From positions 124,001 to 188,000 of the forward strand of contig CACLAC010000001.1 in NCBI GenBank assembly GCA_902604785.1: a DNA stretch of 64,000 nt. Direction: 5' to 3'. Numbering within the stretch: position 1 is the stretch's first letter; each line of letters starts with the position of its first letter. A program made the translations under genes and the position numbers. Below are positions 35,479 to 63,413 of this stretch, one piece after another. The notes under the pieces are model-generated. The model worked only from the letters and a program-made list of their open reading frames with translations. It made no database searches and had not been told where the DNA came from. The stretch comes from an uncultured Pelagibacteraceae bacterium. Its GTDB lineage: Bacteria; Pseudomonadota; Alphaproteobacteria; Pelagibacterales; Pelagibacteraceae.

Positions 35479-36408
35479 TCAATCAAATTCTATTAATGCA
35501 TCAACGTGTCTCCTAGTATCGTCTTGAAGAGCCTGCAAGTCATATCCACCTTCTAGGATTGAAACAACTTTGCCATTACAAGATTTCTTAGAGGTTTCTA
35601 GAATTCTTTTTGTAATATGATAAAAATCTTCAGTTTCAAGTTTGAATGAAGCTAAAGGATCTCTTGCATCTGTATCAAAACCAGCACTTATTAAAACAAA
35701 TTCTGGTTTAAATTCTTTTAATTTTTTTAATGCGAATTCAAAAGCATTTAAATATTCTTCTGAATTTGTACCAGCTGGCAACGGTATATTGCAAATATTA
35801 TTAAATTTACCTTTTTCTTGTTCAGAACCAGTTCCAGGGTAAAAAGGATATTGATGAGTTGATATGAATAAAACATTTTCATTATCATAAAATATGTCCT
35901 GCGTACCGTTTCCATGGTGAACATCTATATCCACTATAGCAATCTTTTTATATTTATATTTTTTTAATAGATATTTTGCTCCAATAGCTATGTTATTAAG
36001 AATGCAGAAACCTGCTGCCTTGTTCTGATTACAATGGTGACCAGGAGGACGAACAGAACAAAAAGCATTTTTGAATTGTTTTTTTTGAACTCCATCTATA
36101 GCAGCAATAATTGAACCTGCTGCATCAAATGTAGCTTTTTTACTTCCAGGAGAAATGATTGTATCCCCATCTAATGATGAAAAACCTTTTGTAGGAAAAG
36201 AATTTTTAACTAAATCAATATAGCTAACATCATGGGTATCTTTGATTATATCATCTGTGATAATTGATGGTTTTTTCCATAAAATATTTTTATTATTTAA
36301 TTTTTTAAAGTTTTCAACAATTACAGATACCCTGGCTATTTGTTCGGGATGTCCAGGACCAGTGTCATGATCTTGATATGTGTCCGAAGTAATTAAACCA
36401 GTTTTCAT
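35479..36408 (-). CDS. Histone deacetylase/acetylpolyamine amidohydrolase family protein
   Basis: SVRPPGHHCNQNKAAGFCILNNIAI, IVDIDVHHGNGTQDIFY, SAGFDTDARDPL. Confidence 0.92.
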   Translation of the reverse strand: MKTGLITSDTYQDHDTGPGHPEQIARVSVIVENFKKLNNKNILWKKPSIITDDIIKDTHDVSYIDLVKNSFPTKGFSSLDGDTIISPGSKKATFDAAGSIIAAIDGVQKKQFKNAFCSVRPPGHHCNQNKAAGFCILNNIAIGAKYLLKKYKYKKIAIVDIDVHHGNGTQDIFYDNENVLFISTHQYPFYPGTGSEQEKGKFNNICNIPLPAGTNSEEYLNAFEFALKKLKEFKPEFVLISAGFDTDARDPLASFKLETEDFYHITKRILETSKKSCNGKVVSILEGGYDLQALQDDTRRHVDALIEFD

Positions 36409-47151: not shown

Positions 47152-47411
47152 TTGTCAAAACAAGATCTTCTTACATATGAAGGACGTGTAATTGATTTAC
47201 TTCCCAACGCCATGTTTCGCGTTGAGTTAGAAAATGGACACACAGTAACAGCTCATACGGCAGGGAGGTTACGGTACTGTCCCCCAACTTTAATAAGTTG
47301 GGGGTAGTAAATTAAAGAAAAGCGCGCATAAGAGTCCTTCAAGGTGATAAAGTGAGAGTCGAGATGACCCCATATGATCTATCAAAAGCGAGGATTATAT
47401 TTCGGTTATAA
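47152..47411 (+). CDS. infA: Translation initiation factor IF-1, interrupted by a 44-nt hairpin-containing insertion (approx. 47275-47318)
   Basis: TTG start: [41 protein letters not shown], then 44 nt with in-frame TAG at 47305, then [30 protein letters not shown]. Confidence 0.9.
47281..47304 (+). repeat. Perfect hairpin CCCCCAACTT-TAAT-AAGTTGGGGG inside infA, extended by outer TACT/AGTA pairs
   Basis: Direct inspection of inverted repeat. Confidence 0.95.
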
Positions 47412-51337: not shown

Positions 51338-51961
51338 TTATCCTTTTTTTATTAATTTGTATTGTTGAGAAGATCTTTTTTCATCTAAAACTTTAGCCAC
51401 TAATTTTCTATTACAATTAATACCCACAACTTCAGAAACCTTTTCTGCTAAAGATGTTTTGGAATAACATTTGTCCCATTTTTCATTTAAAATTTCATCA
51501 ATTTGTTTTCTAATTATTGCTTTTTCTTTTAAATTCTTTTGCTTCTTCAATTTTTCTTTTGCATCTTCAATTTTTTTATCATAATCCTTTGCACTAGGAG
51601 CACTGTCAAAAATTTCTAAAATTTTTTCCTTTTTTTTCTTTAATATTTTACGACCCATTAGGCTATTGTTATTATTATTCATAACTAAAATAATTTCTTC
51701 TATTTTAGTGTCAGAAGGAATTTTATATGCGTAAGGTGTAGAACCAAACTTGCCTTCTCTTTTAATTTTAACCATTTGAATATTATTGTTGTTACAAAAA
51801 CGTCCAAGGTTATCACTTCTATCAATTAGTACTTTTTTTCTGTTTAAATAATTTATAAATTCTTCAGAATCTAAATATCCGGTTGGAATATCTTCATATA
51901 AAAAACCTTTATCAGGCTTAGTTTTTAAGTTGTAAGGATTAAAATTTCTCAATTTACTCAT
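51338..51961 (-). CDS. Hypothetical protein (207 aa), last gene of left arm of the cassette
   Basis: Intact ORF, no recognised family. Confidence 0.7.
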   Translation of the reverse strand: MSKLRNFNPYNLKTKPDKGFLYEDIPTGYLDSEEFINYLNRKKVLIDRSDNLGRFCNNNNIQMVKIKREGKFGSTPYAYKIPSDTKIEEIILVMNNNNNSLMGRKILKKKKEKILEIFDSAPSAKDYDKKIEDAKEKLKKQKNLKEKAIIRKQIDEILNEKWDKCYSKTSLAEKVSEVVGINCNRKLVAKVLDEKRSSQQYKLIKKG

Positions 51962-51966
51962 TTATA

Positions 51967-53115
51967 TTAATTTTTATAATTTATAACCTTCTTTTCTTCT
52001 CGTTCAGGGTCCTGAATATAATCTAATTTTTTATCATTGTCTGTAGATTCTTCTAAGTCTCGTGTATTTAAACCATGCTCATCTCTTAATTTTTTAAGTT
52101 TTGACTCTAAACCTTGATTTGATCCATAAGTAGTGTTTATAACTTCTTCAAGAGCTTTTGTGTGTGTTCGATGACTGCTTATTGCAGTTTTTAAACTATC
52201 TTTCAAAATTGAATATTTATCAAAAATAACTTCTGCTTTTTCAATTATCTCGCCCACCCTTGAAATTTGTTTTTTTTGGTTTTTAATTGAAGAAGCAGTT
52301 GATATTAAACCCATAATACTAATTGGTCCAGCAAGTAAAATTTTTTTCTCAAAACATTTATCTAAAATGGACTCTTGCTCTTTTTCAAGAAGTGCCAAGT
52401 AGCATGCATCAAATGGCATAAATAGAACAATATATTGAAAACTTTGTAAATTATAAATTTTTAAATAATCTTTGCCAGATAACTCATCAATATGATTTTT
52501 CACACTTTCAATATGTTTTTTTAAAAATTGTTCCCTGGAACTTTTATCCTTTGAATTAGCAAATCCTTCAAACGCTTTAAGAGAAACCTTGCAATCAATT
52601 ATTATTTTTTCGTTTTCTGGTAAGTTTAGAATAAAATCAGGCATAACTTTTCTCTCTTTGCCAGTTACTGTATCAATAATTTTTTGCCCTTTTCTTTCAT
52701 CAAAATCACCATCTTCTTGTTTGAAACCATGTTTTTCTAAAATTCTTCTCAATTTTAATTCATTAAATCTCCCTTGATATTTTGCATCTCCTGTTAACTT
52801 TTCATGAAAATTTTTATATTCAGATACAACTGCTTGATATTCTTGGAAACTTTTATTGCTTATCTCTTTAAAACTATCTACATCAGTTCTGTTTTGAATT
52901 AATTCTTGTTTGTCTTTCTTTAAATCAGAAATATATTGGTCTTTTAAGTTTTTTTCTTTTTCTAATCCTTCATAATCCTTTTGCAGCTTAATAAAATCTG
53001 GATCATTATCTTTGTCAATTGTTTGAGTACCTTTATTAAATTTAAATATATAAACAATCAATGCTGCCAAAACTGCTGAAAGTATTGTTACTGATATTGA
53101 TAAAATTGTAATCAT
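51967..53115 (-). CDS. RmuC-family DNA recombination protein
   Basis: N-terminal TM plus coiled-coil; KIIDCKVSLKAFEGF, YIVLFMPFDACYLALLE, ILAGPISIMGLIST. Confidence 0.85.
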   Translation of the reverse strand: MITILSISVTILSAVLAALIVYIFKFNKGTQTIDKDNDPDFIKLQKDYEGLEKEKNLKDQYISDLKKDKQELIQNRTDVDSFKEISNKSFQEYQAVVSEYKNFHEKLTGDAKYQGRFNELKLRRILEKHGFKQEDGDFDERKGQKIIDTVTGKERKVMPDFILNLPENEKIIIDCKVSLKAFEGFANSKDKSSREQFLKKHIESVKNHIDELSGKDYLKIYNLQSFQYIVLFMPFDACYLALLEKEQESILDKCFEKKILLAGPISIMGLISTASSIKNQKKQISRVGEIIEKAEVIFDKYSILKDSLKTAISSHRTHTKALEEVINTTYGSNQGLESKLKKLRDEHGLNTRDLEESTDNDKKLDYIQDPEREEKKVINYKN

Positions 53116-53131
53116 TTATTTCTATTATACC

Positions 53132-54733
53132 TTAATTAATTAATTTACTCCATTGGTTACTGTATTTTTTTACTGAAGCATTATTATCAATACATTTTTG
53201 AATTAGCACTGTTAGGCAATCACTAAATGATCTGTCTCCATCCGAGCCTGCAAAACTGTGACTCAATTCATGAAGCCACACGCTGAAAAATTTACCAAAA
53301 GACTCTTTAAAAAGACTCTTGTTCAAGTATATAATTTTTGAATTTACACCACTGTCACGAAGTTCACCTAATAACAAATTGCAAGTAATAGTTTTAAATT
53401 TAGTTTCGTAGATTGGATCATCATACTCATCACCTGCAAATAGCTTTGCAAAAGTTGGACTTATAGATTTTGCAGCATCAAAACAGAAATTGATTACTTT
53501 TTGTTCTTTAGGAGTTAAATCCTTTGTTTTTTTATTTTTAATTCTATTTTCAGCATTTTTTTTATTTCTAATAAAATTTTCTAGGGCAGACATAACGCCG
53601 AAAGAAGTAAAGTAGGCAGGAAGAATCTTTTTCTTTTTCTTTTCTTTTTCTGTTTTATTTCTAACCCAATTCTGTGTATTGGTTGAAAACCAATCATTGT
53701 AAGAAATATCCCTAGAATAAGTCCATCTTGACTCTGCATAGTACTCTTTTCCAAACAATTCTTTTAGAGATTGATCATCTTTTAATCTTCCATAAGAGTT
53801 TGAAGCTATTGCAGATAGAAGAAGGTGTCCTTTAGGCCAAATTTCCTTTGAAGACTTTAAAATATATTTAATTGCAGGGTTATTTTGTAAATCATGATAA
53901 TAAAAACCACTTCTTGAAAAAATTGAATAAAATGTACTCTGTAATTTTGAGTCAAAAGCTTTTCGGTCCCTGTCAATCTTAACCTTTTTATCAAGGGCAG
54001 CATAAGATTTATCAATTGAAATAATAATAGGTATATCCTTTATATCAATTCTTTTAAGCCCTTTATAAAATCCATAACCATTTTTTTTATCATTAGATTT
54101 ATAAATAGTAATATCATTATAACTATGAAGCACCTCTCCGACTAAAGGGTTTTTGTTATAAAAAAAGTTTTTTAAACCAAATTCATAGGCTTTTTTTAAT
54201 TTTTTATCTATTGTATTCAAAATAAAATAATTTCCTTTTAGTTTGTTTATTTGAAAATAATTATAAACAAGTGGTCTTAGTGAGTCTGTGCCTGAAATTT
54301 CTTTTCCTACAGAAACAATCAAAGCTTTATCAGAAGAAATTAAAATTGGGTTAAAAATACCCATTCTAGCTAGATCCGAGAAGCATTTTTTTATACCTTC
54401 ACCATGTGCACCAATTTGTCTGTAATCTTTTTCTGATTTACTTGATCCAATGTAATAAAGTTTTTCTAAATTATATTCATTTGGAGCATAAACTCTTATT
54501 TGATCATTATCCGTAGTAATTTTTATTTGTTCAATTTCTAATTTTGACTCAATACAACCATCATACATATTTTGAAGCGTGTCTCTTGCAATCATGTCAT
54601 GGTTCCAAATTTCTTCAGACCAGGCAGTGGTTACTGCACTTTCTACACTTTTAATATGTTCTGCAGATTTTATTTCTGGTAATTCTAATAATAGTTCTTT
54701 AAGTTTATTTATATTTGACATTATTTTCTCCAT
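53132..54733 (-). CDS. GHKL (Hsp90/MutL-like) ATPase-domain protein with C-terminal HExxH motif
   Basis: N-box ARDTLQNMYDGCI and GAHGEGIKKC glycine motif; VWLHELSHSFAGSDGDRSFSD near the C-terminus. Confidence 0.7.
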   Translation of the reverse strand: MEKIMSNINKLKELLLELPEIKSAEHIKSVESAVTTAWSEEIWNHDMIARDTLQNMYDGCIESKLEIEQIKITTDNDQIRVYAPNEYNLEKLYYIGSSKSEKDYRQIGAHGEGIKKCFSDLARMGIFNPILISSDKALIVSVGKEISGTDSLRPLVYNYFQINKLKGNYFILNTIDKKLKKAYEFGLKNFFYNKNPLVGEVLHSYNDITIYKSNDKKNGYGFYKGLKRIDIKDIPIIISIDKSYAALDKKVKIDRDRKAFDSKLQSTFYSIFSRSGFYYHDLQNNPAIKYILKSSKEIWPKGHLLLSAIASNSYGRLKDDQSLKELFGKEYYAESRWTYSRDISYNDWFSTNTQNWVRNKTEKEKKKKKILPAYFTSFGVMSALENFIRNKKNAENRIKNKKTKDLTPKEQKVINFCFDAAKSISPTFAKLFAGDEYDDPIYETKFKTITCNLLLGELRDSGVNSKIIYLNKSLFKESFGKFFSVWLHELSHSFAGSDGDRSFSDCLTVLIQKCIDNNASVKKYSNQWSKLIN

Positions 54734-55017
54734 GTTTGATTTTTATTAATTAAATCTATTTCTTCTTTAAGAACAGATATTACTGTTAATACTTTATTAT
54801 AAACGTGCTGAGCTCTTTTTTTTTTATAATATTTTAAAAAATTAAGTGGTAAAAAATAAAAATTTATAATTAAACTAAAAAGTTTTTTATCTTCATAAAA
54901 TTTTCTTTTAGCCTTTTCGTTTATTTCTTGTTGTTTGAACCAATCTTGCCAATCTGCTTTCCATTCAAGATAATAAGTTAAACGATCTTGTAATAAATGT
55001 TTATAGTTTTTTTCCAT
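54721..55017 (-). CDS. Hypothetical protein (98 aa)
   Basis: Intact ORF abutting neighbours in operon. Confidence 0.6.
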   Translation of the reverse strand: MEKNYKHLLQDRLTYYLEWKADWQDWFKQQEINEKAKRKFYEDKKLFSLIINFYFLPLNFLKYYKKKRAQHVYNKVLTVISVLKEEIDLINKNQTWRK

Positions 55018-55020
55018 TTC

Positions 55021-55263
55021 TTAATTTATCTCCACATATCCTTTGTTAATCTTTTCTCTTATTTTTTTTTCACAAAATTTTTTAGCATCTTCTTTTGTTT
55101 TAAAACCTTCTTTTGAATTAGTAGTTGGAAATTTATAAGTTTTTATAGCTGGATTATTTATTCCAATTCGCCCATATGTCACAATAAGTTTTTTTGATTC
55201 TAAATTTACTTTCCAGAACTTACTTGAATTTTCTGTTAAATCTTTATATTCAAAGTGTCTCAT
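55021..55263 (-). CDS. WGR-domain protein (80 aa)
   Basis: KFWKVNLESKKLIVTYGRIG... KEGFKTKEDAKKFCEKKIREKINKGYVEI. Confidence 0.85.
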   Translation of the reverse strand: MRHFEYKDLTENSSKFWKVNLESKKLIVTYGRIGINNPAIKTYKFPTTNSKEGFKTKEDAKKFCEKKIREKINKGYVEIN

Positions 55264-55265
55264 AT

Positions 55266-55619
55266 TTAGAAATTCCTTTGAAAAAGTTTAAATAAAAATT
55301 GGTTATAAATTCTCATCAGCATATTGTAATTAAATGCGATTGCGAAACCACCTATGAAGCCATGTGTGAATGCCCACAGTCCATTCATTAAAGTACTGCT
55401 AACGTCATGTGCCCAAGCTGGATAAACTAAACTGAATAATCCTTTAAACAGTAAAACGGAATTTATTACTTCTTCAGGCCAGCCAGAATTGTAGCCGCTC
55501 GCTAACATATGTTGTGCAAAGATACCTACCCCAACTACTGCAATGCCCCACGTTAAACCAATTGCTATTCCTAAACCAATAGATGATAATTTATTCATTC
55601 GCTCTTTATTTCCTTTCAT
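55266..55619 (-). CDS. Small membrane protein resembling marine holin-like proteins
   Basis: Hydrophobic segments, LGIAIGLTWGIAVVGVGIFA, GFIGGFAIAFNYNMLMRIYNQF. Confidence 0.6.
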   Translation of the reverse strand: MKGNKERMNKLSSIGLGIAIGLTWGIAVVGVGIFAQHMLASGYNSGWPEEVINSVLLFKGLFSLVYPAWAHDVSSTLMNGLWAFTHGFIGGFAIAFNYNMLMRIYNQFLFKLFQRNF

Positions 55620-56039
55620 TTAATGTAATATTTTGTCTTTATTTGCTTTTTTGCTTCGACCAAAAAGATCTGTTTCTTCATCTGGATCGCCAGTCCATTC
55701 ATCAAGAGAATTCATGAAATCTTTATGATGCTTAAGTAGTTGTCTTGAAGTCCAGTTTGTATAGTATTTAAATGCTGGATAAGACATTTCAAACATCATT
55801 GTTTGCATTAAACGGTAGTAAAAGATATACCAACACTCGTCAGAGCTTAAAGCTTCTCTGGTTGCTACTTTTTTAAATTCATCTACCAACTCTTTTGAGA
55901 AAGAATCTACTTTGTTCCAAGTTTCAATCTCAGTTTCGACTTTTTGCTCTTTTAAGGATTTAGTTTTAAAGGGGACTACATTCGTTTCTTTTAATTTTTT
56001 TTTCTTAAATCCCTTTTTTTTATCATTTTTGTTGCTCAT
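55620..56039 (-). CDS. Hypothetical protein (139 aa), first gene of left arm
   Basis: Intact ORF adjacent to divergent promoter. Confidence 0.65.
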   Translation of the reverse strand: MSNKNDKKKGFKKKKLKETNVVPFKTKSLKEQKVETEIETWNKVDSFSKELVDEFKKVATREALSSDECWYIFYYRLMQTMMFEMSYPAFKYYTNWTSRQLLKHHKDFMNSLDEWTGDPDEETDLFGRSKKANKDKILH

Positions 56040-56144
56040 AAACGTGTATTACTATAAAAATAATACAGTGTCAATACAGTATTTTAATATAATTTAATAT
56101 TGATTTATTATTTATATACTGTATATATATAAAGAATAAATAAT
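56040..56144. promoter_or_regulatory. Divergent promoter with ATACAGT direct repeats (56063, 56074) and inverted copy ATACTGTAT (56116-56124)
   Basis: Sequence motifs; two copies spaced 11 bp apart start-to-start. Confidence 0.55.
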
Positions 56145-57344
56145 ATGATTCGAGAAAAAAGTAATAAAATAAGCAAATTAGGTAGTATTTTATGGGAATT
56201 GCTCAAGGAATCTAAAATTTCACAGGCTGTAGCCTCTCAAAATATGGGTCAATACGAAAATTATCTAACTAATTATATCTATAAATACAAACTAGACATA
56301 TTTCCTAGGTCATTTTGTTATAATTTTCTATCAGCAGTTTATCACTCAATAAAAAGAGATAAAATTGATAAGAACCAATCTTTTATATCAATACTAAGCA
56401 GAGTAGTTAATAAGAAATTAGATGTTATAAAAATTTTAATTCTCCCAGCTCTTGATCATCATATTGCAGCATTAACTAAATTAAAAAATATTGATTTTAT
56501 TGAAACCTCAAATTTATTAGAAAGTTATATTGCTGAAGTAGCAACTAAAGAAAAATATGATGAGTATAAATCATTTTTAATTGAGATGGATTGCGAAGAC
56601 GAGGGTTTTGACAATCTAAATAATATTCGTTTGAAGGGGGATCCAATACTAGATGAGAAACGATTTGAAAAAAATATTGAATTTGAAAATCTAGTAAAAT
56701 CAATCCAAGATTTCTATTACCTATGTGAACAACTTAGATTGATCTTTGTTCCAAATTTTTATTCACCAACAGATTATCAAAAAATAGAAATGGAAAATGT
56801 TAGAAAAGGAACTTTTTTAGTAAAGAAAAATTTTGTAAAACAATTAAAACGTTCAGATAAAATTGGTGGAGAGCTTAGCTGGAATTCAGGAAAATTTTCC
56901 TTTAGTAAAAATTCTGAGAATGATTATGAAATTCCAGAATTTTTATCTAAAAATGAATCTCAAGAAATCAAAACTAAAGAAAATCTTTCTGGTTTACCAT
57001 TTGTAGATATCCCAATAACAAAAGAACAAAAAAAGGAGATAGATGATGTAATGGCCAAAAAGGATAAAATAAGATTATTTGAAATAGATGAATTAGTTAA
57101 CAAATATCGAGGTTCGTATTATTTAGAATTGGCTTTTAAGAATAGCAAATACATGAAAGAGCTTGGATTAGATGATTTAGCAGGAACTTTTGAAGAGGCT
57201 AGACTTTTTGAATTAAACAAAAGAATAAATCACTTTATAAGTTCAAATAAACAAGAAGAAAAAATTTCTAAAGAGGAAACTTTTACTAGTCTTTTTGATG
57301 AAATGATTATTCCTGATTTTAAAGAAGGAAAAAAGATTGCATAG
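56145..57344 (+). CDS. Hypothetical protein (399 aa), first gene of right arm
   Basis: Intact ORF, no recognised family. Confidence 0.7.
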   Translation: MIREKSNKISKLGSILWELLKESKISQAVASQNMGQYENYLTNYIYKYKLDIFPRSFCYNFLSAVYHSIKRDKIDKNQSFISILSRVVNKKLDVIKILILPALDHHIAALTKLKNIDFIETSNLLESYIAEVATKEKYDEYKSFLIEMDCEDEGFDNLNNIRLKGDPILDEKRFEKNIEFENLVKSIQDFYYLCEQLRLIFVPNFYSPTDYQKIEMENVRKGTFLVKKNFVKQLKRSDKIGGELSWNSGKFSFSKNSENDYEIPEFLSKNESQEIKTKENLSGLPFVDIPITKEQKKEIDDVMAKKDKIRLFEIDELVNKYRGSYYLELAFKNSKYMKELGLDDLAGTFEEARLFELNKRINHFISSNKQEEKISKEETFTSLFDEMIIPDFKEGKKIA

Positions 57345-57363
57345 TTTTAAATAATTTAATTCA

Positions 57364-58818
57364 ATGGAAAATTCTTTTACTTTTTATGATATGGAAGCTG
57401 ACTCTGGATCAGCAGTTAAAGCAACTTGTTTAAGTTGCAGCTATGTAACAGTAAATTCAAATTTTAAAACCATAGAAGAAGGAACTTTTAACTCTAAATT
57501 AAGAAAGTCTAGAGCTTTTGAAATCGATGCAATGTTAGCACACAACATTCCTTTAAGTAAAATTCAAAATGAAGAATTATCTAATGGAGAACTTGTAGAC
57601 AAACTAGAAGCAAAATTTATTGAACTAGCAAAAAAAGGAACTACTTTTGTTGGTTATAATTCATCCTCATACGATATGGTTCTTTTACATCATATGCTTC
57701 ATTTAAATTTAAAATATCCATTTATAACCAGCAGTAGTCAATTCGACTTATTACCAGCTGTACGTTCAGCATCAGTTTTTGCCAATGGAGCATTAAAATA
57801 TGAAAAAAATAGTAAACTTAACACGTCATATAAATTGCAGGATATGATTAAGGCAAATAATATAAAATCTGAAATTGCACATGATAGTCTTTGGGATACT
57901 AGGGCAACAAAAGATTTAGGAAAGTTATTATTTCAAAATGCACCAGAAATATTTAATGCCTCTATTGCCTTAAGAAAAAAAGCAGATGTACTGCCACAAA
58001 TTAAAGATGGAATATTTTGTTGGAATGAATTTTTCTTCGCAAAAGCACGCATTTTTTGTGGTTGTTATTTAGGAAATACAATTTATCCAAATTGGTATTA
58101 TCTTTATGACCTGCGCCAGCCGCCTGAAGAAATTGTATCAATAATGAATGATAGAGAAGAACTTAGAAAAAAAGTAGATTCTAGTCCTCGGTTTATTAGA
58201 ATATGTAAAGGAAATCGAAGTCCAATTTTTTTGGAACAAGAAAATGCATTAATTGATCAAGAGTATAAATCTATTGGGATTAAAGAATTAGAAAAAAGAT
58301 ACAAATATTTAATAAAATACCGCGAAGAATTATCAGTTAGATTAAGAGATATTGCACAAGAAAAAATAGAGGAAAAAAATCAATTTGATCAAGAATTAAA
58401 ACAACCAGAGGAAAATCTTTATGGTTTAATGTTTGAAATAAATAAAGATAGAAAAAATATGAATGATTTTAATTTAGCAAAAGAGCTTTCTGATAAAAAA
58501 AAAATATTTAATAATTTTAAGAATGAAGAAGTTAAAATGTTAGCAAAAATGAAACTTTATGAAGATTTGAATGAAGATGATTTTTGTAAAGTCCTTTCAA
58601 AAAAAGAATTTAATAGATTAAAAAAAAGAATAGCCAATTATTTGTTAGATACATCTAATAATTTTTCACCTTTTACAAAAATACCCGAACAACTAGCAAG
58701 ATTAGATACCCTTAAACTTTATGCAGAAAATGCTAAGGATGATAAAAAAAGTGAACAACTGCAAGAACTAGACAATTATCTTGTAAAAATGATGAATGAT
58801 TATGAGCAATATCGTTAA
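57364..58818 (+). CDS. SbcB/exonuclease I-like DEDDh exonuclease
   Basis: TFYDMEADSG (DxE), FVGYNSSSYDMVLLHHM, YKLQDMIKANNIKSEIAHDSLWDTRATKDLGKLL. Confidence 0.75.
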   Translation: MENSFTFYDMEADSGSAVKATCLSCSYVTVNSNFKTIEEGTFNSKLRKSRAFEIDAMLAHNIPLSKIQNEELSNGELVDKLEAKFIELAKKGTTFVGYNSSSYDMVLLHHMLHLNLKYPFITSSSQFDLLPAVRSASVFANGALKYEKNSKLNTSYKLQDMIKANNIKSEIAHDSLWDTRATKDLGKLLFQNAPEIFNASIALRKKADVLPQIKDGIFCWNEFFFAKARIFCGCYLGNTIYPNWYYLYDLRQPPEEIVSIMNDREELRKKVDSSPRFIRICKGNRSPIFLEQENALIDQEYKSIGIKELEKRYKYLIKYREELSVRLRDIAQEKIEEKNQFDQELKQPEENLYGLMFEINKDRKNMNDFNLAKELSDKKKIFNNFKNEEVKMLAKMKLYEDLNEDDFCKVLSKKEFNRLKKRIANYLLDTSNNFSPFTKIPEQLARLDTLKLYAENAKDDKKSEQLQELDNYLVKMMNDYEQYR

Positions 58819-58824
58819 CGTAAA

Positions 58825-61800
58825 ATGATCAAACAAAATAAAAAAAATTTTTATTCTCCCAGTATGCTTAAAAAATATCTAAGTTGTAAGCATATTATAT
58901 TTAATGAAAAATATGAAAAAGAATTAAAACTTAAAAGAAAAGAACATTCTAATATTGATTTATTAAGATTTGATAAGGGAAATATTCATGAAGCTAAATA
59001 TTTTGAAAAATTAAAAAAAAAATACTCCAAAGTTAAAGATATAAAAAAATTAAAAAATGTAGATAAATTTAAAGAAACTCTAAATGCCATGAAACAAGGA
59101 TATGAGATTATTTATGGTGGTTGGCTTTCAGATGGAAAATGGAGTGGGGAAGCCGATTTTCTTGAAATTAATAAAAAACACAAATCCAATTTTGGAGACT
59201 ATTTTTATGAAGTGATAGATACTAAAAATTCAAAGAAAATTCGTGGTGATCATATCTACCAGGTCGGAATTTACTCCTATCTTTTAAAAAAATCTCAAGG
59301 AGTATCTTCAGAAAATTTATATATTTTATTAAAGGACGGAACTAAGGAAAAAGTAAAAATAAATGAGATTTATGATTTATTTAATTTTCACAAAGAAAAA
59401 TATGAACAGTTTCTTAAAAATGGAGTAGACAAAACAAAACCTGAAAAATGCTCATTTTGTGCACTGTGTGATTGGGAAAATGTATGTTCAGATCAGTGGA
59501 AGAAAAAAAGACACATAAACCAAACAGGAGGCATTAATAGAGGCAACCAAAAAAAAAGATTTATTAATAGCGGTATTGATACAATAGATAAATTAGCAAA
59601 ATTAAATCCTAAAACAAAAATTGAAGGTTTAAGAGATGAAATAAAAAATAAAAGAATTGAACAGGCTAAATTACAAATAGAATATGAAAAAACTGGTAAA
59701 CCAATATACAAAATTATAGAGGAAAATTTAATTGTTAGAAAAGGTTTTAATTTAATACCAAAACCATCAAAGTCGGATCTGTTTTTTGATCTTGAAAGTT
59801 CCACATGGGTTCACGATGAAAAATTAGAATATCTTTTTGGAATTTATTATGAAGAAGATGGTAAACAAAAATACAAGAGTTTTTGGGCAAAAGATAAAGA
59901 AGAAGAAAAAGAAAATTTAATAAAATTTTTTGATTTTACAAAAGCACATTTCAAGAAGCACAAGGATGCAAAAATTTACCATTATGGCAATTATGAAATT
60001 CAAAATCTTGAACGGTTAACATCAATGTATAAAGTTAAACATATTGAATATGATCAATATTTAAGATCATATAAATTTGTTGATTTATTATCAATATGCC
60101 AGGAAGCAATCATGATTTCAGAAAATAGCTATTCACTAAAAAATATAGAAAAATTTTATCCTTTTAATAGAACTGGAGATGTACAAAAAGGGGAACAATC
60201 AGAAGAATTTTATTTAGAATGGGTGCAAACAAATAATAAAAAATTTAAAGATCAAATAATTGATTACAATAAGCAAGATTGTTATTCAACATTTAAGCTA
60301 AGAGAATGGCTCTTAGATATAAAGAAAAAAACAGGAACTAGATTTCTTGAAGAAATAGAAAAAGCTGAGGATGATGAAGAATTAATGGATCATGAAGAAG
60401 AAATAGTTAAATATCAAGATAAAATTAAAAATTCAAAATTAAAGGATAAAAAAATTTTAAATCTATTATCAGATGTTATTGGATTCTATGTAAGAGACAA
60501 TAAACCAAAATGGAGAGAATTTTTTGATAGAAGAAATTTATCTGATGATGAATTATTAGATGACCGAGAATGTATAGCGAAAATGCAATTAGTTTCTTCT
60601 TACAAAGATCCCACACCTAAAAAAAGATCTATGATTTACAAATATGTGTTTCCAACTCAAGAATACAAGCTAAAAAAGGGAAGAGTAGTAACCATAGCCA
60701 ATAATGTGGATTTAGAACGTCCAGATGCTGCAGGCACAATTGAAGATTTAGATCAAATTAAAAAAATTGTAATATTGAGAAAAGGAATATCAAAAAATGG
60801 TCAAACTTTGCCTAATATTTTATCTATAGGTGAAAAACCTCCTAAACATACTCGATATACCAAGCTAAACAATAATATTTATAAATACTGTGACAACATT
60901 TTGGAAAATAAAAATAATTATAAAGCTTTAACAAGTTTATTGAATAAATCTACTCCATTAATAGATGGAATGAAACAAGGAGAAAAAATTATAAAAACTG
61001 AAAATTTTGAAGAAGAAATTCCAAATGTAGTTTCTAGATTAAAAGATGGATGGATTTTTATACAGGGGGCACCAGGTACCGGAAAAACTTACCATTCAGC
61101 AAATACTATAATTGAATTAATTAAAAAGAAAAAAAGGATAGCAGTTACTGGAAACTCTCACAAAGTAATTCACAATTTATTAGATAACATAGAATATTTT
61201 GCTAATAAGAAAAAAATACAATTTAAGGGTCTAAAAAAAGTTAATGAAAAAGATGAGGAGACATATTTTAATGGAAAATATGAATATATTAAAAACGCTT
61301 CAAAAGATCCACCATTTATGGATGGATTGCTTGATAAGTCGGTTTCGCTTTTTGCGGGAACAAAATATCATCTTGCTAGTTCTTATTATCATGCAAAATT
61401 TGATTATTTGTTTGTTGATGAAGCGAGCCAAATGTCTTTAACCGATATAGTTGCTTTGGGCAGCATAACAAAAAATATAGTTCTTATTGGTGACCAGCTA
61501 CAGCTTGGACAACCTACTCAAGGATCTCATCCGGGAGAGTCTGGAAAATCAGTTTTAGACTATCTTCTTGAGAATAATGATACTGTTGCTGAGGATAGAG
61601 GTATATTTTTAAATAAAACTTACAGATTACATCCAAAAATAAATAATTTTATCTCTCCAAGTTTCTATGAAGGCAGATTATTAACACATAGTGATAACAA
61701 AAAAAGAAAAATTAATTTTATTAAAGGAAGTTCAATTTTATCAGAAGGCGTACATTATATTCAAATGGATCATGAAGACAGAACCCAAACATGTGATGAA

Positions 61801-62220
61801 GAATATCAGGTAATAAGTAAAATTATGAAACAATTATTAGCATCAAAATTTGTAGATGTAGATAACAAAGTAAGAGATTTAACCATCGAAGATATTTTGA
61901 TTGTAAGTCCTTACAACGCTCAGGTTAACTATCTTAAAGAACGGCTAGATAAGAATTCTCGGGTCGGCACGGTGGACAAATTTCAAGGACAAGAATCTCC
62001 AATTTGTTTAATAAGCATGACCACTTCAGATATTGAAAATCTTCCTAGAAACAAAAAATTTTTTTTCAACCGTAACAGGCTAAATGTTGCCGTCTCTAGG
62101 GCCAAATGTGCTTCAATTGTATTGTTCAATCCAAGATTACTAGATACTGCTCCTGACGATTATGAAGAAATGAAAATGCTTAATAATTTTTATAAATTAC
62201 AAAAATATAAAATTAATTAA
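58825..62220 (+). CDS. TM0106-type RecB-like nuclease / RNase H-like domain / SF1 (Upf1/Dna2-like) helicase fusion
   Basis: PD-(D/E)XK-like WSGEADFLEI..YEVIDTKNSKK; CSFCALCDWENVC cluster; DLFFDLESSTW..NKQDCYSTFKLREWL; QGAPGTGKTYHS, DYLFVDEASQMS, VGTVDKFQGQESP, NRLNVAVSRAK. Confidence 0.88.
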   Translation: MIKQNKKNFYSPSMLKKYLSCKHIIFNEKYEKELKLKRKEHSNIDLLRFDKGNIHEAKYFEKLKKKYSKVKDIKKLKNVDKFKETLNAMKQGYEIIYGGWLSDGKWSGEADFLEINKKHKSNFGDYFYEVIDTKNSKKIRGDHIYQVGIYSYLLKKSQGVSSENLYILLKDGTKEKVKINEIYDLFNFHKEKYEQFLKNGVDKTKPEKCSFCALCDWENVCSDQWKKKRHINQTGGINRGNQKKRFINSGIDTIDKLAKLNPKTKIEGLRDEIKNKRIEQAKLQIEYEKTGKPIYKIIEENLIVRKGFNLIPKPSKSDLFFDLESSTWVHDEKLEYLFGIYYEEDGKQKYKSFWAKDKEEEKENLIKFFDFTKAHFKKHKDAKIYHYGNYEIQNLERLTSMYKVKHIEYDQYLRSYKFVDLLSICQEAIMISENSYSLKNIEKFYPFNRTGDVQKGEQSEEFYLEWVQTNNKKFKDQIIDYNKQDCYSTFKLREWLLDIKKKTGTRFLEEIEKAEDDEELMDHEEEIVKYQDKIKNSKLKDKKILNLLSDVIGFYVRDNKPKWREFFDRRNLSDDELLDDRECIAKMQLVSSYKDPTPKKRSMIYKYVFPTQEYKLKKGRVVTIANNVDLERPDAAGTIEDLDQIKKIVILRKGISKNGQTLPNILSIGEKPPKHTRYTKLNNNIYKYCDNILENKNNYKALTSLLNKSTPLIDGMKQGEKIIKTENFEEEIPNVVSRLKDGWIFIQGAPGTGKTYHSANTIIELIKKKKRIAVTGNSHKVIHNLLDNIEYFANKKKIQFKGLKKVNEKDEETYFNGKYEYIKNASKDPPFMDGLLDKSVSLFAGTKYHLASSYYHAKFDYLFVDEASQMSLTDIVALGSITKNIVLIGDQLQLGQPTQGSHPGESGKSVLDYLLENNDTVAEDRGIFLNKTYRLHPKINNFISPSFYEGRLLTHSDNKKRKINFIKGSSILSEGVHYIQMDHEDRTQTCDEEYQVISKIMKQLLASKFVDVDNKVRDLTIEDILIVSPYNAQVNYLKERLDKNSRVGTVDKFQGQESPICLISMTTSDIENLPRNKKFFFNRNRLNVAVSRAKCASIVLFNPRLLDTAPDDYEEMKMLNNFYKLQKYKIN

Positions 62221-62222
62221 TT

Positions 62223-62987
62223 TTACTTCTTTTTTATAAAATCAAAAAATTTGCTCATATATTTACAAAGGTCACAATCCGGAGAAGAGGATGGTATCTT
62301 ATTGGTTTCTAAAAAATTCTTTATTTCAACAATAGTATTTTCAACCCAATTATAATCTTTAGTAGTGTAAGGTATAATTGCCCATTCAAATTCTAATGAA
62401 TTATCAAAAATTTCTTGATCTGGCTTTGCATTAACATAAAAAAAATAACTAGTATTATCTATTTCCAATCCAAGTTTTGATAATATCCACGAATAAATTT
62501 CTGCCTGTCTTTTGTAACCAATTAAATAAGGCGCATCAAAAGATTTTAGCTTATCAAATTTATCTGTATGGGTGGATTTGTAATCCACTATATGAATTTT
62601 TTTTGTATCTAAATTTTCCCATAAATCGTCTACGGATCCAGCTATTACAATATTTGTATCTTTATGATGAAATCTTGCCGCTTTAAAGGGCTCTCTCCAG
62701 ACATCTAATTCTGCATGAGAAAATGGAATAGCGTTAATATTAGCTTCTTTTTGATAAATAGTTTGTTCTTTATTTTTTCTAGCAACGTCAAATTCATTTT
62801 TTAACAATGTATCTATTCTAGAATTAAGATTATAAGGGAAAGGTTTTGGTCCTTTTATTTGAAGCCGCATATCAAGATATGCACACCTTTTACATCTCAA
62901 GTACAAATCAATTTTAGATCTACTCATTATATAAGGATCTTTAGATTTAGGGTCGTATTTATATGACCAAGGAAAGTTTTTATCCAT
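62223..62987 (-). CDS. PD-(D/E)XK nuclease-family protein
   Basis: SKIDLYLRCKRCAYLDMR, GSVDDLWENLDTKKIHIVDYKS, C-terminal CDLC. Confidence 0.8.
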   Translation of the reverse strand: MDKNFPWSYKYDPKSKDPYIMSRSKIDLYLRCKRCAYLDMRLQIKGPKPFPYNLNSRIDTLLKNEFDVARKNKEQTIYQKEANINAIPFSHAELDVWREPFKAARFHHKDTNIVIAGSVDDLWENLDTKKIHIVDYKSTHTDKFDKLKSFDAPYLIGYKRQAEIYSWILSKLGLEIDNTSYFFYVNAKPDQEIFDNSLEFEWAIIPYTTKDYNWVENTIVEIKNFLETNKIPSSSPDCDLCKYMSKFFDFIKKK

Positions 62988-63092: not shown

Positions 63093-63413
63093 ATGACAAT
63101 AAAAAATTCTACAGATGAAGACTTTGATAAAACAATAAAAGAAAATAATTTAGTTTTGGTTGATTTTTGGGCATCTTGGTGTGCGCCCTGCAAGGCGTTG
63201 ACACCAATACTCGAGCAAATTGATGTAGAACTAAAAGATAAAATTTTAATTTTAAAACATAATATTGATGAACAGCCCAACGTCCCGACGGCCAATGGAG
63301 TTAGAGGAATTCCTACGCTTCTTTTATATAAAAATTCTGAATTGGTTGAAACTCAAGTTGGTTTATCTAATAAAGCAAAGTTGTTAGAAGTAATTAATAA
63401 ACATCTATCTTAA
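63093..63413 (+). CDS. trxA: Thioredoxin
   Basis: VDFWASWCAPCKALTPILEQI, GIPTLLLY. Confidence 0.94.
   Translation: MTIKNSTDEDFDKTIKENNLVLVDFWASWCAPCKALTPILEQIDVELKDKILILKHNIDEQPNVPTANGVRGIPTLLLYKNSELVETQVGLSNKAKLLEVINKHLS

Follow-up and report, generated by a model that had tools for sequence, protein, structure and literature searches.

Hairpin inserts in infA and five other genes of one bacterial genus, and their probable skipping by the ribosome

The window analyzed here, a stretch of 64,000 nucleotides (64 kb) from the genome of an uncultured Pelagibacteraceae bacterium, carries an infA gene whose coding sequence for initiation factor IF1 is broken by 44 nt and continues in another reading frame. 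Is this a defect of one draft genome, or does the gene still yield its protein, and at which level is the interruption then overcome?

The interrupted infA gene of the window

The first part of infA occupies positions 47152–47274 of the forward strand and comprises 41 codons beginning with a TTG start, as judged from the open reading frames and from profile scores. The same frame runs on to a TAG stop at 47305–47307, giving an open reading frame of 51 aa with 41 IF1 residues and 10 others. IF1 coding resumes at 47319–47411 on the same strand, with 30 codons and a stop, in a frame different from that of the first part. The 44-nt gap in between (47275–47318, forward strand) is missing from the infA of intact relatives, and its removal (or that of 47272–47315) produces a gapless IF1 of 71 aa. 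This had been stated in the initial annotation for the gene at 47152–47411, and both the coordinates and the profile scores agree with it: against TIGR00008 (cut-off, 61.15 bits) the joined protein reaches 103.8 bits, and the halves alone remain below the cut-off with 49.1 and 44.1 bits. The claim that no single frameshift can connect the halves was also borne out, because the landing frame has its own TAA stop at 47313–47315, downstream of the frame-0 TAG. The annotation was less exact about the junction, which is gapless as described but corresponds to GKLRKNRIR in the relatives, not to GKMRKNRIR; the IF1 of the window has unusual residues (K-A-R and S-K-A-R-I).

Most of the gap is a hairpin (47275–47309, forward strand) with the stems TACTG/TAGTA and CCCCCAACTT/AAGTTGGGGG and the loop TAAT, supported by folding and by the leave-one-out model described below. 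The structure CCCCCAACTT-TAAT-AAGTTGGGGG with its outer pairs has a folding energy of -22.3 kcal/mol (z from -3.4 to -5.4), and no pattern like it occurred in 100 shuffles of the 64-kb window, in keeping with the hairpin proposed earlier. On the 3' side follows a G-free tail, AATTAA (47310–47315), which contains the landing-frame stop. The gap is flanked by a putative takeoff codon, CGG (Arg; 47272–47274), and ends with a putative landing triplet, AGA (47316–47318), all on the forward strand; the first matches in position the takeoff codons of 18 related inserts, and the second is placed as their landing triplets are. Apart from tRNAs, the window contains no Rfam matches.

The hairpin is present as a single copy, as no second one was found in the window's own genome (G000; 1.04 Mb in 47 contigs, 70% complete). 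The same genome has no intact infA elsewhere, which disfavors the second functional copy that the annotation had named as a competing explanation; relatives mostly have one intact infA each.

A family of inserts in six genes

The element, which had been presented as a single case, turned out to be one of 19 related inserts in 14 genomes of one genus (probably SAR11), those of the window bacterium and 13 related species, distributed over 10 sites in six genes, namely, infA, trxA, rpsA, gcrA, an exonuclease-I-like gene, and a gene of the HDAC family. Genomes of 1.0–1.5 Mb and a genus very rich in species agree with SAR11. All 19 were re-read from the DNA, and each joins to a gapless conserved protein. 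When 197 genomes of the order were searched with the window hairpin, allowing up to three mismatches, the matches fell in the same genus only and led to G188 (91% complete), where infA is split at the window's site by GGCTAGTCCCCAACTTTAATTAGTTGGGGACTAGTC and a short tail. A Pfam search for split infA in 399 genomes of the genus extended this site (site A) to five separate species (the window genome, G188, G241, G285, and G330) and detected a second one, site B (VLQG|DNV), in G385, G431, and again G330, whose infA therefore has two gaps with its codons still intact. A motif search then placed the same hairpin unit, together with a second, shorter insert, in trxA of G253, and a translated comparison of roughly 1 Mb from G188 and as much from G253 revealed a split rpsA (ribosomal protein S1) and a split gcrA-like gene in G188 as well; the comparison for other split genes took in about 460 kb of G000. 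G188 and G253 also contain single-nucleotide frame changes in long conserved proteins (G188 C13 12085 and G253 C4 93286), which may be natural frameshifts or sequence errors. Finally, a covariance model retrieved trxA inserts in G442 and G534 (two inserts), a split HDAC-family gene in G251 and G381, and a split exonuclease-I-like gene in G262 and G382.

The window insert is itself a member of this family. With a model built without it, it was the best match in the 64 kb (E 7.2e-7), and it is placed at site A like four others. It is a divergent member: TAC follows its takeoff codon, and its outer stem is shorter.

Outside these genomes, the other 189 genomes searched in the class gave no match, and the exact window hairpin was absent from the viral contigs searched. 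A looser pattern in three viral contigs was rejected on reading: the hairpins of L076 (1629–1661 and 2234–2266), L077 (6309–6344), and L078 (786–823) share the GGCTAR...YTAGTC ends and are intergenic and terminator-like, probably convergent and not coding gaps. In L076, such a hairpin follows each of two near-identical tandem gene copies. Those weak covariance-model matches within the genus that were read were likewise discarded, as L219, L220, L222–L225, L227–L243, L252, and L254–L257 look like intergenic terminators and L226 like a chance match within a gene. A second infA match in G457 is a fragment at a contig end, not an insert; this genome has an intact infA besides the fragment (L065 1–174), which is fused to unrelated sequence and is probably an assembly chimera.

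Each genome has one to three detected copies, all in one region; the genome-scale comparisons and model searches covered more than this stretch. The six genes lie in one conserved syntenic stretch of about 40 kb in the order gcrA, rpsA, trxA, exonuclease, infA, and HDAC (G253 C2 70.0–106.4 kb, G188 C4 21.4–53.9 kb, and G000 C1 159.5–201.8 kb). In the window, the HDAC-family gene (35482–36408, reverse strand), which marks one edge of the element-bearing neighborhood, and trxA (63093–63413, forward strand) are both intact, as is the exonuclease-I-like gene (57364–58818, forward strand), which is distantly homologous (about 22% identity) to the one split in G262 and G382.

The stretch encloses a variable island, in which RmuC, exonuclease, and helicase-nuclease genes are located. 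In the window, it lies between hisG and trxA (51338–62987) and encodes an RmuC protein (PADLOC RTasRmuC), an exonuclease-I-like protein (RTasSbcB), a nuclease-helicase of 1131 aa, and a PD-(D/E)XK nuclease; in G188 and G253, the island has other gene content. Next to it, the genes of G000 (C1 188.7–191.7 kb, compared with G188 C4 31.3–34.2 kb) have diverged unusually far from those of its relatives, to 27–43% identity, a hint that distant homologues have taken their place. One may guess at a link between the elements and recombination or a mobilizing factor.

Anatomy of the inserts and how they may be skipped

The inserts are 44–53 nt long, with a single one of 28 nt. They occur in all three frame classes, and 17 of the 19 change the frame; a constant length of 2 modulo 3, true of infA, fails in the other genes. 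Every insert contains an in-frame stop. Simple frameshifting can be dismissed for 12 of the 13 tabulated elements, where the frames of the two parts do not overlap and one shift could not join them. The hairpin starts at, or adjoins, the codon that immediately precedes the gap, and several copies have a hairpin reaching into that codon and the upstream coding sequence. Its stability greatly exceeds that of shuffled sequence, with z values of -3.7 to -8, and only trxA-1a is weak (-1). In alignments of nine elements, 95–99% of the cells pair, against 38–65% in slid controls; 7–8 of 17 pairs have changed on both sides, and one G-U pair close to the base (5' GGC with 3' GTC) does not vary among the nine. 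The tail on the 3' side has 0–8 unpaired nucleotides and, in total, one G in 98 nt, compared with about 17% G in the coding DNA of these genomes.

The codons bordering the gap follow a pattern as well, with the junctions placed to within one residue more or less. In 12 copies, GGG precedes the gap and GGA or GGT stands at the landing site; the remaining pairs are AGG-AGA (two), CGG-AGA (two, the window included), and CGG-TGA, TGG-TGC, and TGT-TTT (one each). The two triplets share their first two bases in 15 of 19 cases, the mismatches being CGG-AGA twice, CGG-TGA, and TGT-TTT, and they are never identical. A stop directly follows the takeoff codon in trxA-1a and trxA-1b only and is the second codon in 10 copies; in the 17 copies besides trxA-1a and trxA-1b, the takeoff codon is followed by GGC, CGC, CGG, or TAC, all of which are used in these genomes. 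The codon phase is the same at all 10 sites, for which the chance, computed post hoc from genomic phases (GG 57% in positions 1–2, NG 25%), is about 3e-4.

The hairpin seems to be held by selection while the tail drifts, since G188 and G285, with 95% identity in the flanks, differ at one loop position of the hairpin but at 5 of 11 positions of the tail and landing triplet. Moreover, site-A hairpins are almost identical between lineages with flanks only 64–73% identical, which suggests that they are very strongly constrained or that the same site has received them by transfer more than once.

That related inserts occupy the same site in five separate species, and six genes in 14 genomes, with compensatory changes in the stems, makes an assembly or amplification artifact exceedingly improbable, even for a 47-contig draft such as the window genome; this disposes of much of the annotation's concern about a misassembled single genome.

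IF1 and S1 are essential in well-studied bacteria, and the interrupted genes appear to work. In the site-A genomes, pN/pS is 0.069 over the 30 post-gap codons (with synonymous divergence saturated), compared with 0.105 before the gap, and intact infA genes give 0.046 and 0.110, respectively, so that the coding sequence beyond the gap is under normal purifying selection. The window copy is less typical, because its inclusion lifts the post-gap value to 0.138. An alternative is that the interrupted copies are decaying and that each genome has an intact gene in its unassembled part; the carriers are 52–91% complete, and the odd residues of the window IF1 would fit. This is improbable, as no intact infA was found in any of the seven genomes with a split one, and the chance of missing it in all seven, from their completeness, is about 4e-5 (0.30 x 0.09 x 0.42 x 0.35 x 0.48 x 0.12 x 0.18). 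Relatives have one infA, and the post-gap pN/pS of 0.07 and the preserved codons of the doubly interrupted gene in G330 likewise speak against decay. The decay of the locus across relatives that the annotation had allowed for is thus disfavored, and the insert that it proposed to look for in relatives splits infA at the same site in four other genomes.

The halves might instead be made separately, by termination and reinitiation, as was offered for IF1 in the annotation. Stop codons do follow the first part, and in some carriers, a start codon lies within 10 codons of the point of resumption. Nevertheless, 5 of the 13 tabulated elements lack any start codon in this interval, and the sole candidate in three others is a TTG within the hairpin; the remainder have their first start 4–8 codons downstream, which would cost conserved residues. 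The sites are, furthermore, inside small compact domains (IF1 and thioredoxin). For IF1, there is no suitable start ahead of the point of resumption, and conserved residues would be missing; split proteins are accordingly hard to credit.

Removal of the insert from the RNA is somewhat easier to entertain, although still unlikely. An activity would cut the hairpin and tail from the mRNA and rejoin the ends, making the inserts mini-introns of 28–53 nt. The conserved hairpin and the fixed position of the junctions relative to it are compatible with such a process, to which mismatched takeoff and landing triplets would be irrelevant. However, the inserts are far shorter than known self-splicing introns and without Rfam matches in the window except tRNAs, and excision would require neither a common codon phase at ten sites nor a G-free tail nor similar triplets. 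We know of no bacterial machinery that excises and religates such short mRNA segments. If true, a free-living bacterium would have mini-introns in its essential genes, and no known splicing system would be like it.

Programmed ribosomal bypassing, as in T4 gene 60 and the byps of yeast mitochondria, is probably the way in which the inserts are skipped. The common codon phase favors a codon-aware mechanism, as a codon-blind one would not need it. The ribosome would read to the takeoff codon at the base of the hairpin (CGG in the window, usually GGG), with the next codon locked in the hairpin. There, the peptidyl-tRNA would let go of the mRNA, the hairpin would re-form behind the ribosome, and the ribosome would slide across the nearly G-free tail to the first similar triplet (AGA in the window, usually GGA or GGT), where the peptidyl-tRNA would re-pair and reading would resume in the frame set by that triplet. 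The only Gly tRNAs found in G188 and G253 are GCC and UCC, so that UCC, whose cognate is GGA, would read GGG by wobble; the move would lead from a weaker takeoff pair to a stronger landing pair.

Counted against bypassing are the triplets that are never identical, the lack of an adjacent stop in 17 of 19 copies, the absence of an apparent common nascent-peptide signal (none was seen by eye among ten different upstream peptides), and, in the window, the divergent element with its unusual IF1 residues. That hopping is due to the absence of ribosomal protein L9 was considered and rejected; a full-length L9 is present in G253, and none was found in the examined, incomplete parts of G188 and G000. 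On balance, the 14 genomes and six genes, the covariation, the purifying selection, and the common layout of takeoff codon, hairpin, tail, and landing triplet give good support to the annotation's proposal of bypassing in a core translation factor; that the skipping occurs at translation, between these exact codons, and with tRNA re-pairing is what we infer from this layout.

Significance and comparison with known systems

According to a 2016 review, bypassing in use is established for T4 gene 60 and the mitochondria of Magnusiomyces capitatus, and the few bacterial reports were not followed up or were spurious (PMC5009743). No bacterial chromosomal family of such inserts was found in the literature searched, which mostly did not extend to subscription journals, so that an earlier description is possible. 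If the interpretation is true, this would be the first known family of bypassed inserts in a bacterial chromosome, and cellular ribosomes would bypass as a matter of course in a group of bacteria that is probably the ocean's most abundant. Many natural variants would then be available for deriving the rules that govern takeoff codon, hairpin, tail, and landing, and gene callers would be labeling working genes as broken. The family also raises the question of how the elements spread and why they are clustered in one chromosomal region.

Among known inserts, group I and II introns differ in having a conserved catalytic core, for which the present inserts, 28–53 nt long and with no Rfam match in the window except tRNAs, leave no place. 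Rickettsia palindromic elements are palindromic inserts inside bacterial coding sequences that keep the frame and are translated; unlike them, the inserts described here all have an in-frame stop, and 17 of 19 change the frame. A 29-nt hop reported in an adhesin gene of Prevotella loescheii, cited in the review as a single report without follow-up (PMC5009743), is a bacterial bypass of similar size, but it is neither part of a family nor in a core gene.

The byp elements of M. capitatus mitochondria offer a closer parallel. They are palindromic, occur at 81 sites in many essential genes, and are transcribed but not translated, and their takeoff and landing codons are not always perfectly matched (PMC5009743, PMC6649704). 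In the same way, related hairpin inserts are found here at several sites in several genes (10 sites, 6 genes, and 14 genomes). In contrast to the byps, the family is bacterial, with one to three copies detected per genome in one region, and an ordinary sense codon follows the takeoff codon in 17 of 19 copies, whereas in M. capitatus an unused codon is in the A site at takeoff.

In T4 gene 60, the GGA takeoff codon lies in a stem-loop, the gap is 50 nt, and the hairpin refolds behind the ribosome (PMC5009743, PMC11194080), with sliding highly processive for gaps of <56 nt (PMC11194080). The family shares with it a similar gap length (28–53 nt, within the processive range), a Gly takeoff codon in a stem-loop, a Gly landing codon, and resumption in another frame. 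The differences are that the inserts are in chromosomal core genes, in many copies and at many sites; that their hairpin begins at the takeoff codon and fills the gap; and that no common nascent peptide is seen. Gene 60 also has identical takeoff and landing codons and an adjacent stop, and the family is set apart from it because both features were looked for and the codons proved similar but never identical, with no adjacent stop in 17 of 19 copies. The inserts would thus work like gene 60 and the byps, yet be members of neither.
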